Shown in pieces: positions 6,098-26,374 of a stretch of DNA of 27,319 nucleotides (position 1 is its first letter; the number at the start of each line of letters is the position of its first letter). Location: positions 1-27,319 of IMG/VR virus record IMGVR_UViG_3300042936_000502. One strand, given 5' to 3'. The position numbers and the translations under genes are program-made. The stretch is from a virus. The notes beneath the pieces were generated by a model. That model saw nothing but the letters and a program-made list of their open reading frames with translations. It searched no databases and was not told the origin of the DNA.

Positions 6098-6760
6098 ATG
6101 AGCATCGAAGCTGTGGCATTAGTTCTAAATCAATCAAAAGCAACCGGTAGGGCAAAACTTGTCCTTATTGGAATTGCTAATCATCTTGGAGATCAAGGCG
6201 CTTGGCCCGCGATTAGCACCCTTGCTCGCTACGCCAATGCCTCAGAGCGTTCGGTCAAGCGTGACATCCAAGAACTTGTAGAGCTTGGTGAGCTGAAGGT
6301 AGAGGTTCAAAACGCCCCAACTCAAACCCAATACAAAACCAATCTTTACTGGCTCACAATCGGGTCAGGGGTGACAGATTCGGCATCAGGGGTGACAGAC
6401 TGGGTAAGCAGGGGTGACAGCTCAGGTAAATCAGGGGTGACACCTGTTGGCACGCAAAACATAATATTAACCATCAAAGAACCATCAATGAAACAGGCTG
6501 AAAATGAGTTTGATAATTTCTGGAATCTTTACCCTAAAAAGGTCGCTAAGTCTGAAGCACTAAGAGCCTGGAATAAAGCAACTAAGAAGAAAACCGCTGA
6601 TGAGTTATTGAAGCTGACCAAAGCCTACGCCGAGGGTAAGTTACCAGAAGATAAATACATTCCGTACCCTGCCTCATGGCTAAACAAAGAACTTTATGAG
6701 AGTGTTGAACTCGCTGAAGCAAAACCTTTGCCTAAGCTCTTTGTAGGGAGAATCAAATGA
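6098..6760 (+). CDS. Winged-helix replication initiator protein
   Basis: A 220-residue protein with a strong GAGAGGG site seven bases before ATG. Residues 5-75 form a winged helix-turn-helix (AKLVLIGIANHLGDQG, ISTLARYANASERSVKRDIQ, LVELGELKVE), typical of phage O/DnaD-like initiators. Residues about 85-125 are a linker coded by the iteron region. Residues 130-210 are a helical domain with FDNFWNLYPKKVAKSEALRAW, found at the C-terminus of many phage replication proteins and thought to contact the helicase. The helicase gene follows with an ATGA overlap. A small hairpin (6049-6068) lies just upstream and could be an operator. Confidence 0.8.
   Translation: MSIEAVALVLNQSKATGRAKLVLIGIANHLGDQGAWPAISTLARYANASERSVKRDIQELVELGELKVEVQNAPTQTQYKTNLYWLTIGSGVTDSASGVTDWVSRGDSSGKSGVTPVGTQNIILTIKEPSMKQAENEFDNFWNLYPKKVAKSEALRAWNKATKKKTADELLKLTKAYAEGKLPEDKYIPYPASWLNKELYESVELAEAKPLPKLFVGRIK
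6366..6442. repeat. Four iterons inside the replication initiator gene: candidate origin
   Basis: CAGGGGTGACAG occurs at 6366-6377, 6387-6398 and 6409-6420, and CAGGGGTGACA at 6432-6442. The start-to-start spacings are 21, 22 and 23 bases, about two helical turns, so all face one side of the DNA. The 22-base step shifts the third copy into another reading frame (it reads RGDSS where the others read GVTD or GVTP), so the conservation is of DNA and not of protein. An AT-rich stretch (6454-6500) follows. Iterons inside the initiator gene next to AT-rich DNA are the design of the lambda origin in gene O. Confidence 0.8.
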
Positions 6761-7986
6761 CACAGTTCGAGCAGTCAGTAATTGGATCAATCCTGCTGAC
6801 CAATGGCAAGGCGCTAGAAGAACTAACGCTAAGCCCGTCAGACTTTGATGATTTACAAAACGAAAGAATCTATAAAACCCTGCTAGAGATGAAGGCAGGT
6901 CGCCAGCCGATTGATGTAATGACAGTCGGTGCAGCACTTCCAAGGCTCTCTGTTTATCTTCACGAGATTGTCACAGCTACGCCAACAGCAGCTTCGGTCA
7001 AGTTCTATGCCAGCAAGGTAATCGAAGAAGCCACAAGGCGTAGGTTGGCTCTTGCCGGAACGATGATTCACAGCAAAGCCCAGCATGAGGATTTGGCAAC
7101 AGTCTTTGACACAGCCAAAAAAGAAATTGATGACCTAATTGATCGCAACTTGGCAGTCAAGCCAAGCTATGTTTCCGATGAGCTATTGCCATACCTAGAT
7201 GAGATTGACAAGCCCAAGCACTACCCAGAAAGCCCTTGGCCTTTACTAAATGACATCATCACAGGATTCCGACCAGGTGCGCTTTACATAATCGGTGCAA
7301 GACCAGGTGTGGGTAAAACCATTGTCGGCTTACAAATCGCTTGGGAGCTTTCAAAGAAAGGCCCCGTATCTTTTCACAGCCTTGAGATGGGCAAGAGCGA
7401 ACTCTATAACCGCATAATCAGCATGGAAGCTGAGGTTTACATCGGCAACATCGAGAAGGGTAATTTACAAGAGTGGGAGTGGGACAGGATTGCGAAGGTC
7501 AGACAAGACATTCAGTCGCACCAACTTGCTATCCATGACAAGTCAGGGCAAAACCTTTTGCAGATTAGGGCGCTCGCAAACAGCGTCAAGGGCAACAACA
7601 GACTTGAAGCGATTGTGGTGGACTACTTAGGACTTATTCAAGACACCGAAAGAGGTCGCAAGCGTTACGAAATGATTACCGACATTTCCATTGGACTCAA
7701 AAACTTAGCTAGGGATTTGAATGTGCCAGTAATCGCTCTAGCTCAGCTAAACCGAGGACCAGAGCAGCGCAAGGACTCAGAACCCGACATGGCAGACCTA
7801 AGAGATTCAGGTGGAATCGAGCAGGATGCTGATGCGGTTATCTTGTTACACCGAGTCCAGACAGAAGAAGATCAGTTTGAGTGGCAAAAAAGCCAGATGA
7901 TAATGAAGGTAGCTAAGAACCGACATGGTGGACTTGGAGAAGTCGCACTCAAGTTCGAGGGCCACCTTTCCAGAGTGATTGGGTAG
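6757..7986 (+). CDS. dnaB: DnaB-family replicative helicase
   Basis: A 409-residue replicative helicase. Residues 1-125 are the DnaB N-terminal helical domain (FEQSVIGSILL, LQNERIYKTLLEM). The RecA-like domain has Walker A GARPGVGKT at 180-188, the EM motif FHSLEMGKSEL about 205-215, Walker B AIVVDYLGLI about 284-293, and ALAQLNRGPEQR with the SGGIEQDADAVILLHR motif 4 region near 325-365. It unwinds the fork as a hexamer. The start overlaps the initiator's stop (ATGA), so the two are co-translated, as in many phage initiator-helicase pairs. It lacks an obvious separate primase; priming may use a host protein. Confidence 0.95.
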   Translation: MTQFEQSVIGSILLTNGKALEELTLSPSDFDDLQNERIYKTLLEMKAGRQPIDVMTVGAALPRLSVYLHEIVTATPTAASVKFYASKVIEEATRRRLALAGTMIHSKAQHEDLATVFDTAKKEIDDLIDRNLAVKPSYVSDELLPYLDEIDKPKHYPESPWPLLNDIITGFRPGALYIIGARPGVGKTIVGLQIAWELSKKGPVSFHSLEMGKSELYNRIISMEAEVYIGNIEKGNLQEWEWDRIAKVRQDIQSHQLAIHDKSGQNLLQIRALANSVKGNNRLEAIVVDYLGLIQDTERGRKRYEMITDISIGLKNLARDLNVPVIALAQLNRGPEQRKDSEPDMADLRDSGGIEQDADAVILLHRVQTEEDQFEWQKSQMIMKVAKNRHGGLGEVALKFEGHLSRVIG

Positions 7987-14656: not shown

Positions 14657-14946
14657 ATCTTCAAGCGACACCCGCGCCCCGCTACTAGCAGGCCCCTAGG
14701 GAAACCCGCCCCCGAAACTTAGCCCCCGCCCGTGCCGTGTCATCGAATGAAGGGCCTAAACCCCCAAAAATTACGCCTAACTAAATGTGCGGCAGACACC
14801 TAGGGAACGCCAAAACCGCTATACCCCGCTTGAATGACCGAATTACCGCCCAAAGATCTTTACACCGCGCCCCTGGTTTAAGGGCCAAAACCCCGCCCCT
14901 GCCCCCGCCCCGTGAAGGCGCAACCGCCCTAAACACGCCAATAACC
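14657..14946. other. C-rich, G-poor noncoding stretch left of the small-gene operon
   Basis: About 290 bases hold no credible frame on either strand. The plus strand has many C-runs (CCCCCGCCC, CCGCCCCTGCCCCCGCCCCG) with few G, unlike the coding regions. It contains CCCCTAGGGA at 14693-14702, which recurs at 18052-18061 in the right-hand flank, and a copy of the AACCGCTA motif at 14814-14821, also repeated in the right flank. It may be structural RNA, a binding region or the edge of an acquired segment. Confidence 0.5.
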
Positions 14947-15010
14947 AAATTTGCCTAAAATTTGCCAAAATTACCCAAAATTTGCTAAATTCTAGATATG
15001 GCAAATTGCC
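14947..15010 (+). promoter_or_regulatory. Phased A-tract repeats with candidate promoter and palindrome
   Basis: AAATTTGCC (14947) is followed by ten-base units at 14957, 14967 and 14977 (AAAATTTGCC, AAAATTACCC, AAAATTTGCT) with exactly ten-base period, which predicts intrinsic bending. A -35-like TTGCCA (14962-14967) and -10-like TAAATT (14986-14991), spaced 18 bases, lie within them. GGCAAATTGCC (15000-15010) is a perfect palindrome that repeats the unit in inverse orientation. AAAGAAGGGG and the TTG start at 15032 follow. This is the likely promoter/operator of the small-gene operon. Confidence 0.5.
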
Positions 15011-15031
15011 AAATAAAGAAGGGGTAATAAA

Positions 15032-15286
15032 TTGAATAATCTACACGAAACTACCGAACTAACCGAAGAACTAAACAAGCTACCTATTGTTAGGGCGGTT
15101 AGTTATGAATTTCCGGGTATGTGGGTAATCATCCTAAAAGATAACCGCATATTTGATATGGGCGATGTTAACGGCCCTTTTGGATGGAATGACATCGAAT
15201 GTCAATTCTTAGGTGAAACCGAAGCAACCGAAGCTAAAGATATTGCCCGCGATTTTGCGGAATGGGTAAAGGGGTTACAAGCATGA
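15032..15286 (+). CDS. Hypothetical small protein, first gene of small-gene operon
   Basis: An 84-residue acidic protein from TTG 15032 with AAGAAGGGG as ribosome site. It has a Thr/Glu-rich start, a beta-like middle (AVSYEFPGMWVIILKDNRIFDMG) and a helical end (EATEAKDIARDFAEWVKGL). All ten Glu codons are GAA and both Gln codons CAA, the bias of the whole operon. No family is recognised. Its stop overlaps the next ATG. Confidence 0.65.
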   Translation: MNNLHETTELTEELNKLPIVRAVSYEFPGMWVIILKDNRIFDMGDVNGPFGWNDIECQFLGETEATEAKDIARDFAEWVKGLQA

Positions 15287-15405
15287 ACCCCTTTATTGGC
15301 AGACTAAACAAATTGCTTCTAAGGCTAACTATTATCTTGGGCTTTTATTTTGCCCTAATCATTACGCCAATAATTTTTGAAGGCGTGAATCTTCTAACCA
15401 AATAA
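15283..15405 (+). CDS. Very small single-span membrane protein
   Basis: A 40-residue frame whose ATG overlaps the preceding stop (ATGA). A basic start (NPFIGRLNKLLLRL) leads into one hydrophobic span of about 18 residues (TIILGFYFALIITPIIF) and a short polar end. The coupled junction and the clear membrane segment support it, as does the absence of any other gene in this 140-base gap. Function unknown. Confidence 0.6.
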   Translation: MNPFIGRLNKLLLRLTIILGFYFALIITPIIFEGVNLLTK

Positions 15406-25169: not shown

Positions 25170-25184
25170 GCTATGGTTTATCTA
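25169..25184 (+). promoter_or_regulatory. Extended -10 promoter giving a possible leaderless transcript
   Basis: TGC plus TATGGT (25169-25177) is an extended -10 element placed at the end of the terminator T-run. The glycosyltransferase ATG follows at 25184, six bases after the hexamer, where transcription itself would start, and no ribosome site precedes it. A leaderless message, common in Actinobacteria, is the simplest reading. Confidence 0.4.
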
Positions 25185-26374
25185 TGCCTACAAATAAAGA
25201 GAAACTAAATGGCGCAGTAAGCGTCTGGTCTAACAGCTACAACGCACCAACCGGATACGGCCAACAGGTCACAATGCTGATTGACCGACTCAAGCGAGCA
25301 AACCTTGATGTCGCAATGCTTTCCAACTATGGACTTGAGGGAATCCCAAGCTCAATACAAACGCCTTATGGCAAAATTCCACATTACCCAAGAGGTTTAG
25401 ATCAATACTCAAACGATTCGGGACCACAGGATCACAAGACCTTTATAGCTGACAAAGATAAGCCGAACCTTCTTATCAGCCTTTACGATGTTTGGGTAAT
25501 GAAGTCAAAACAGTATGACGACTTTCCAATCGCTGCTTGGACACCACTCGACCATGTGACTCTGCCACCAGGTGTCGAGAGTTTCTTACGCAAAGAGAAT
25601 GTTACGCCAGTTGCGATGTCACCTCATGGCGTTAGACAGCTAACAGCTAAAGGCATTGAGTGTGAGTACGCACCTCACGCGATTGACACAAAGGTTTACA
25701 AGCCAAGCTACAAGATTGGCAATCACGACATAAACGAATACATGGGTCTAAGCCCAGATAACTTTGTAGTCGGAGTAGTGGCAGCTAACAAGGCATCAGG
25801 TCTAGTTCACCGCAAAGCCTATGGTGAGGTAATCCTTGCCTTTAGTGTCTTTGCTAAAGACAAACCTGATGCTGTGATGTATCTTCACACCGATTCATTC
25901 GGTTTGTCAGGTGGCTGGAACTTGCTCAACATCCTTGCCTCGCTGGGAGTAAAGAAAGAACAAGTAATCTTTCCAAACCCACAAGACTACCGATTCGGTT
26001 TAGCTCAGTCTGATCTTGCTGCTCTTTATACAAGGATGGATGTCTTGCTAGCACCTAGCTTGGGTGAAGGCTTTGGAGTTCCATCAGTCGAGGCTCAAGC
26101 TTGTGGCACCAGGGTTATCGGTTCTAACTGGGCGGCAACACCTGACCTAGTAAGTTCTGACTCTTGGTTGACTGAGGGACAACTAACCTGGGATGCCGGT
26201 CAAGACGCTTGGTGGATGACCCCAAATGTATCTAGCCTGGTCAATGCGCTAGAGGAATCTTACAAAGCAGATCGTGGAACATCGCAGGTTGCAATTGACT
26301 TTGCCAGCCAGTTTGATGTCGAGAAGGTCTGGGATAATAATTGGATGCCGATTCTAAAGAAGTTGCTCAAGTGA
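25184..26374 (+). CDS. GT4-family glycosyltransferase
   Basis: A 396-residue GT-B glycosyltransferase. The N-terminal domain starts SVWSNSYNAPTGYGQQV, the usual opening of GT4 enzymes (sugar-acceptor side, Gly-rich loop). The C-terminal domain has VVGVVAANKASGLVHRKAYGEVILAF near residues 195-220 and the donor-binding E-x7-E in EGFGVPSVE near 295. It transfers a sugar from a nucleotide-sugar donor. It stands between capsid and head-tail connector genes with its own terminator-bounded unit, so glycosylation of capsid or tail protein is a reasonable inference. The next gene starts at an overlapping GTGA. Confidence 0.88.
   Translation: MPTNKEKLNGAVSVWSNSYNAPTGYGQQVTMLIDRLKRANLDVAMLSNYGLEGIPSSIQTPYGKIPHYPRGLDQYSNDSGPQDHKTFIADKDKPNLLISLYDVWVMKSKQYDDFPIAAWTPLDHVTLPPGVESFLRKENVTPVAMSPHGVRQLTAKGIECEYAPHAIDTKVYKPSYKIGNHDINEYMGLSPDNFVVGVVAANKASGLVHRKAYGEVILAFSVFAKDKPDAVMYLHTDSFGLSGGWNLLNILASLGVKKEQVIFPNPQDYRFGLAQSDLAALYTRMDVLLAPSLGEGFGVPSVEAQACGTRVIGSNWAATPDLVSSDSWLTEGQLTWDAGQDAWWMTPNVSSLVNALEESYKADRGTSQVAIDFASQFDVEKVWDNNWMPILKKLLK

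Follow-up and report, generated by a model that had tools for sequence, protein, structure and literature searches.

The DNA analysed here, called the window below, is the virus record IMGVR_UViG_3300042936_000502 from position 1 to 27,319 (27,319 nt, linear record). It carries a gene for a putative replication initiator, whose end is overlapped by 4 nt by the start of a gene for a DnaB-like replicative helicase. Inside the initiator gene lie four copies of an 11-bp core, direct repeats without dyad symmetry, which are designated here as iterons.

6098–6760, plus strand: initiator gene, 220 aa (HTH_36; phrog_270 and O-like PHROGs; AlphaFold2 model m57adfc6e5e74)
6366–6376, plus strand: iteron 1, CAGGGGTGACA (exact; synonymously invariant in 31 relatives)
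6387–6397, plus strand: iteron 2, CAGGGGTGACA (exact; synonymously invariant in 31 relatives)
6409–6419, plus strand: iteron 3, CAGGGGTGACA, in another reading frame (exact; synonymously invariant in 31 relatives)
6432–6442, plus strand: iteron 4, CAGGGGTGACA (exact; synonymously invariant in 31 relatives)
6757–7986, plus strand: gene for a DnaB-like replicative helicase (Pfam DnaB_C, E=3.1e-73; phrog_19)

The initiator and its iterons

Comparison of the initiator with Pfam at E 0.01 or better revealed HTH_36 at the N-terminus as the sole match (E=1.3e-8; 34.9 bits at a cut-off of 25); neither RepA_N nor the lambda O family model was matched at this threshold. The latter is named Phage_rep_O, which we take to be the lambda O family proper. 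Among the PHROGs, it matched phrog_270, replication initiation (E=1.5e-32), and 'O-like' families as well, while four initiators tested against NCBIfam gave no match. The AlphaFold2 model, run on 55 sequences (mean pLDDT 72.3, pTM 0.41), comprises a winged helix (residues 3–86) and a helical C-terminal domain (residues 132–202). The winged-helix initiator proposed in a first-pass annotation of this DNA is thus supported by both family matches and the modelled fold. The linker (residues 91–129) has pLDDT values below 50 and is predicted to be disordered, so that the iteron-bearing DNA would encode a disordered linker. Structure comparison found generic winged helices only (best Foldseek E 0.03; VIA Z ≤8.3, mostly about 7), with no outstanding match among them; they include the N-domain of DnaD (2v79) and two further chains, 4pt7 ('structure of initiator') and 4pql. 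A sequence search of solved structures gave no convincing relative.

The iterons follow each other at steps of 21, 22 and 23 nt and start in frames 1, 1, 2 and 1 relative to the ATG at 6098; iteron 3 encodes S-R-G-D and the other three encode S-G-V-T. Number, spacing and the deviating frame of the third copy agree exactly with the earlier description. The window holds no further exact copy of CAGGGGTGACA, and with up to two mismatches 12 matches were found versus 6.4 expected. When the codons of the ORF were reshuffled 20,000 times with the protein preserved, no 11-mer ever reached four copies in a 100-bp span (0/20,000), whereas three copies occurred in 4 trials and two copies in 1,654. Other repeat chains of the window, near 2.4–2.6 kb and 14.9–15.1 kb, were rejected as iterons: the former belongs to a Pro/Glu-rich coding repeat (2369–2575, unit about 12 nt, in the ORF 2042–2869), and the latter are low-complexity or non-coding repeats, such as the apparently non-coding AATTTGCC/CCAAA repeats at 14945–15013 ahead of a cluster of small genes.

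The terminase is nearest to that of Pontimonas phage phiPsal1 (52%) among isolated phages, the DnaB to those of Microbacterium phages (about 39%), and the initiator finds its best matches in Arthrobacter and Curtobacterium phages. The window thus probably derives from an actinophage, as had been stated before; the nearest terminase and initiators make this likely.

Selection on the DNA of the iteron block

Scanning viral contigs with the initiator protein yielded 80 loci that were kept, and at least three iteron copies (≤2 mismatches) in an open frame were found in 78 of them. At locus L057 the frame is broken and the iteron copies are still present. Two loci have repeat sets of their own, CAGGGGTGTCA four times in L060 and CAGGGGGTTCA three times in L071, which indicates that the iteron copies of one genome can change together. 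All or most iterons of a gene share a changed letter in L060, L071, L058, L224 and L242–L246 (GTGTCA, GGTTCA, AGAGG, TGAGG, ACGATG), as if the iteron copies and their reader evolved together.

Synonymous variation was determined in 31 representatives (<97% identity) drawn from 44 relatives in the same register. In these relatives, which were picked for repeats with at most three mismatches each, a choice that favours conserved copies, all 16 codons with their third base in a repeat showed zero synonymous variation, compared with a mean of 0.33 for the other 130 codons; in 100,000 degeneracy-matched codon permutations this invariance was never reached. Outside the repeats, 29 of the 130 codons are invariant as well, many of them beside the repeats, and the conserved block extends to about 6487:

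6404–6487, plus strand: block with almost no variation, spacers included, which starts at the codon preceding iteron 3 and ends with the final copy of the AACC repeat described below (31 relatives compared by codon table and nucleotide consensus)

Within this block, some codons at 6461–6472 vary among the 31 relatives. An overlapping gene was rejected as the source of the invariance, since no other ORF of at least 60 aa crosses 6366–6490 on either strand.

Zero synonymous variation at the repeat codons, together with copies in differing frames, substantiates the selection on DNA claimed in the first-pass annotation. The comparison with relatives suggested there also gave the expected picture: the repeats persist at the DNA level while the codons and residues that separate them vary, and the iterons of L060 and L071 changed in concert. 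One may ask whether the repeats merely reflect the linker peptide, with its SGVT repeats and EPS and TI motifs, or common descent, the DNA having no function. Such an explanation would suit L058, L076 and many of the relatives L167–L246, in which the iterons stand in one frame at 21-nt steps. As the third codon positions are frozen, the copies occupy different frames and the linker is predicted to be disordered, we regard it as extremely improbable; peptide selection in place of selection on DNA is ruled out by the frames and the synonymous invariance.

A second repeat class next to the iterons

The AT-rich stretch which the first-pass annotation had placed next to the iterons is indeed present at 6456–6492. 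There, in the invariant tail directly 3′ of the iterons, we identified a second class of repeats, absent from the earlier account, with the consensus AACC[AG]T[CT]A, steps of about 11 nt and copies in all three frames:

6457–6464, plus strand: degenerate first AACC copy, AAACATAA (sequence; AACCATCA stands here in L067, L075, L077 and others)
6469–6476, plus strand: AACC copy AACCATCA, read as T-I (sequence; relatives)
6480–6487, plus strand: AACC copy AACCATCA, read as E-P-S in another frame, 11 nt after the copy at 6469 (sequence; relatives)

Two of the three copies in the window are exact, and the conserved tail reads AACCATCAAAG AACCATCAATG with the 11-nt step. The literature searched, with most subscription papers outside its reach, held no description of this AACC element.

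The element was quantified in a widened set of 185 ORFs, none contained in another, of which 175 have at least three direct repeats found de novo and enough DNA after them; 90 of these are non-redundant (8-mer Jaccard <0.25). Within 80 nt after the last iteron, AGAACC occurs in 68 of the 90 and AACCAT in 59, whereas 1.8 and 3.4, respectively, would be predicted from elsewhere in these genes. At least two AACC at steps of 9–14 nt within 90 nt were found in 79 of the 90 homologs versus 20 of 1,727 null windows; the copies lie in more than one frame in 71 of these 79, and the most frequent step is 11. Weighted base frequencies around AACC favour [GA]AACC[A]T[TC]A. In every GC class, the GC content of the AACC stretch is 8–17 points below that of its own gene. 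The element is constant while the iterons change completely (e.g. L257, L258, L261, L263, L270, L271, L274).

Viral contigs were also searched blindly, by DNA pattern only (AACCRTCN{3,6}AACCRTCN{3,6}AACCRTC), which returned at least 120 stretches; the counts of this search refer to 80 loci among the matches listed. At 70 of the 80 loci an ORF of ≥100 aa carries the motif in its sense strand, and 55 of these 70 sense ORFs matched phrog_270 (replication initiation) and 51 matched HTH_36. A seed-iterated HMM classified 53 of the 70 as initiators and 0 of 69 ORFs with a scrambled motif; this HMM was rebuilt from the blind matches, so that its 53 depends on the set while the PHROG and Pfam counts are independent of it, and the ORFs were chosen differently, on the motif's sense strand for AACC and as the longest ORF, up to 4,900 aa, irrespective of strand for the control. 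At three loci beyond the 53, L330, L335 and L362, an initiator frame overlaps the motif in a frame other than the longest. Simple tandem AACC repeats without an initiator were seen at L324, L347, L352 and L360.

Among the matches listed, 42 of 46 non-redundant initiators have at least three upstream iterons at steps of 20–24 nt, most frequently 22 (21 nt, 17 cases; 22 nt, 67; 23 nt, 22), and in 41 of these 42 the iteron copies occupy two or more frames. The AACC steps in the 46 are 10 nt (17 cases), 11 nt (52), 12 nt (29) and 13 nt (5), and in 40 of them the copies occupy two or more frames. Measured from where the last iteron starts, the first AACC lies at a distance of 22–24 nt in 21 of the 42 (range 8–42). 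A related chain test was positive in 46 of 53 initiators of this listed set but in none of 636 windows taken from the flanks of these loci. Over all matches listed, steps of 10, 11, 12 and 13 nt numbered 23, 76, 55 and 6, with the peak at 11, while 134 of 160 steps of the scrambled control CCAATRC were 12, as coding repeats give. Over-representation by match count was discarded, because the totals for AACC and CCAATRC are both lower bounds; the number of matches is therefore no evidence, and gene identity and spacing remain. At L343 (1252–1280) and L295 (2592–2619), iteron-like GGGTGACA repeats and an AACC triple lie outside any sense ORF, which fits a function of the DNA and speaks further against selection on the peptide. 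The L343 repeats are palindromic (GGGGTGACAGGTTGTCACCCC).

The same pattern scan of genome contigs gave 19 initiators at 80 loci among the matches listed, 18 of the 19 with iteron chains; 13 of the other 61 listed loci also have a repeat chain. The AACC-bearing initiators listed come from records titled Mycetocola, Desertimonas, Bifidobacterium, Campylobacter, Alcaligenes, Stenotrophomonas, Acidovorax and others. A genome contig scan for relatives of the window's initiator (A1) found none. The E. coli plasmid record NZ_CP148393 carries an AACC variant (AACCAGTCA), and a gene of Vibrio phage Va_PF430-3_p42 has a single AACCATCA after its repeats. In the related initiators of the Decurrovirus phages Swenson and Arielagos (L084, L085), the in-gene repeats are palindromic (ATACCCCCGGGGGGGTA type) and not simple iterons, and they are followed by AACCATC/AACCGTC.

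The C-terminal domains of the 185 proteins sharing the window's N-domain vary: 113 are of the FWxxYP type, 25 are DnaT-like according to a crude pattern, 39 are other and 8 are cut. A DnaB-like gene comes next in 54 of 107 cases with FWxxYP, 3 of 24 with DnaT-like and 9 of 38 with other C-domains, and AACC is constant throughout. At L061–L073, initiators with DnaT-like C-domains are followed by a protein of 121–127 aa in place of DnaB, which is perhaps a helicase loader; C-domain and partner gene seem to be exchanged jointly. Judged by these sequences, the presence of AACC seems to track the N-domain and not the C-domain. RepO of phiPsal1, for instance, combines an FWxxYP C-domain with a different N-domain and a TTCCACTGTGG repeat, and has no AACC repeats. 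None were seen in the five hand-picked systems inspected (lambda, P22, TP901-1, pPR9 and phiPsal1), so HTH_36 as such is insufficient for AACC; Microbacterium phage Bush, which has the nearest DnaB, also has another initiator and no AACC repeats.

Residue 51 of the recognition helix is Arg in 137 cases with TGACA and in five with TGTCA; where it is Ser, TGTCA occurs at two loci, GTTCA at one and TGGCA at one. Since the five Arg cases also have TGTCA, this is suggestive only and we do not claim a code from recognition helix to iteron.

Proposed origin and known systems

Several direct repeats, conservation of the DNA irrespective of the frame and an adjoining AT-rich stretch, as found here, characterise origins with iterons inside the initiator gene. 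This kind of origin is known from lambda O, P22 and pSK41/pPR9 Rep and is common among phage initiators. According to the accessible portions of the sources, the lambda origin lies in the middle of gene O and comprises four iterons, described as 18 bp long (PMC3349717) or as 19-bp inverted repeats (PMC7466680, PMC5043065), and an AT-rich stretch of 38–40 bp (PMC3349717, PMC7466680, PMC5043065). Lambda O and P22 gene 18 resemble the window in their four mid-gene iterons, the AT-rich stretch on the 3′ side, a winged-helix-type initiator and a helicase function that follows in the operon, supplied in P22 by the DnaB-like gene 12. The iterons of lambda, however, are 18–19-bp inverted repeats whereas those of the window are 11-bp direct repeats, and the opening regions of lambda and P22 contain ACAAAAGA-type repeats but no AACC repeats. 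The lambda O arrangement with a different initiator, as the first-pass annotation had put it, therefore holds for the position of the iterons inside the gene and fails for their type. The ACAAAAGA copies in the opening regions of lambda (L528) and P22 (L529) are about 15 nt apart and may be what corresponds to the AACC element in origins of the lambda type.

For pSK41 Rep, the excerpted text of PMC5703833 reports four boxes inside rep and a dispensable linker encoded by the origin; the N-domain of pPR9 Rep belongs to HTH_36 (pfam13730), as does that of the window, differs from pSK41 together with the origin, as a swapped module, and supports replication. Going by this excerpt, an HTH_36 member of the in-gene kind of origin is experimentally viable. 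Both share with the window the initiator boxes in the rep gene and a linker encoded by the origin, but they are plasmids of Firmicutes with C-domains unlike that of the window, and the pPR9 linker has different repeats and no AACC. In this linker (L653), a pair of long repeats precedes AATA(C)TAATA-type repeats spaced by about 12 nt, which may represent another kind of opening element. The arrangement of the window is not a special case: the Arthrobacter phages Galaxy and Renna12, EBPR podovirus 2 and many others have in-gene iterons followed by AACCGTC or AACCATC repeats. The iterons of these three differ from those of the window (GGGGTGAAC; AACCCGGA), and in Galaxy and Renna12 the initiator gene is followed by a methyltransferase gene, in the window by DnaB.

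From these sequence comparisons, the region from 6366 to about 6487 is likely the replication origin of the phage, located inside its initiator gene. The N-terminal winged helix would bind the four CAGGGGTGACA iterons, which lie roughly on one face of the DNA as they are about two helical turns apart, and the complex would open the adjoining AT-rich stretch. The strand marked by AACC[AG]T[CT]A, with repeats about one turn apart, would be kept single-stranded, and the C-terminal domain would help to load the phage DnaB encoded by the next gene. The low constraint on the linker protein allows the origin to sit there and to move with its own reader. Against the origin we count the flat GC skew at 6.4 kb, the reliance on analogy for strand capture, the lack of AACC in pPR9 and the inexact first AACC copy. 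The GC-skew peak expected in the first-pass annotation did not appear (no extremum, cumulative 0.97 to 1.03), which in a linear record of 27 kb is uninformative either way.

Alternatively, the repeats could be operators of a winged-helix regulator in its own gene and the origin could lie elsewhere. Many winged-helix proteins are repressors, the nearest folds being of that kind, and a promoter-like match (10/12; GTGACA, 17 nt, CATAAT) at 6437–6465 extends over parts of both iteron 4 and the AACC stretch, which makes a regulatory role possible. The promoter scan gave 4 matches versus 1.9 expected, however, and the sites lie at least 268 nt inside the gene and not at its start. Moreover, the proteins find their matches among replication initiation families, the genes that follow encode helicases, loaders or methylases, and the precedents in lambda, P22 and pSK41 are origins. 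We consider operators in place of an origin improbable.

With regard to the AACC repeats, a role as the opening and strand-capture part of the origin is plausible by analogy. The available text of PMC10316083, PMC10797057 and PMC4081077 describes capture of single strands by RctB at the ATCA repeats of V. cholerae ori2 and by TrfA at the 13-mers of RK2 (GGTT). As in these elements and the DnaA-trios, short phased repeats lie on one strand of the window beside the initiator sites, and the two strands of AACCATCA contain ATCA and GGTT, respectively. Their repeats are bound as single strands, as far as those texts go; for the phage, whose initiator differs from RctB, TrfA and DnaA and whose step is about 11 nt, such binding is predicted by analogy. 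The evenly spaced motif may thus mark the site of strand separation. Extending this, one can speculate that AACC[AG]T[CT]A at steps of about 11 nt is a shared origin-opening code. Each family would have its own iterons and recognition helices, and one single-stranded motif would be captured by a conserved part of the winged helix, two AACC steps (11 nt) corresponding to one iteron step (22 nt) as if one copy served each protomer of an iteron-bound dimer. We put this forward tentatively, as a proposal with less than an even chance.

The main rival to strand capture by the initiator is the binding of a host factor, i.e. a primosome, helicase-loading or DNA-bending protein, to AACC; an RNA element in the initiator mRNA would be a further choice, the iterons in both cases still forming the origin. 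A shared partner would account for AACC remaining constant while iterons and C-domains change, and an RNA role would likewise disregard the reading frame. However, AACC follows one type of N-domain, being absent from phiPsal1 with the same C-domain and another N-domain, from TP901-1 and from pPR9, though these are few and hand-picked. The hosts of AACC-bearing initiators span several phyla, which argues against a host-factor site, and a step of about 11 nt suits DNA better than RNA. Such roles of AACC appear possible to us, though somewhat doubtful.

Annotation of origins is rare in phages. Should in-gene iterons at about 22 nt and AACC at about 11 nt together mark the origin, replication starts of many phages and prophages become readable from their genomes, and the pairs of initiator and iteron offer ready material for deriving a DNA-recognition code. 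How an initiator of this type holds one strand open would become testable in phages. A common oddity of phage initiator linkers would also be explained, their EPS, NHQ/NRQ and TI/TV motifs being one DNA element read in three frames. A shared AACC code, if true, would be the phage equivalent of the DnaA-trios and would help to locate phage origins by their DNA sequence alone.

Elsewhere in the window, a perfect 10-bp inverted repeat (TAAAGGGGTT / AACCCCTTTA, 9 nt apart) was found at 15267–15295, and a glycosyltransferase-like gene (phrog_2170; 25184–26374) adjoins the gene of the major head protein.
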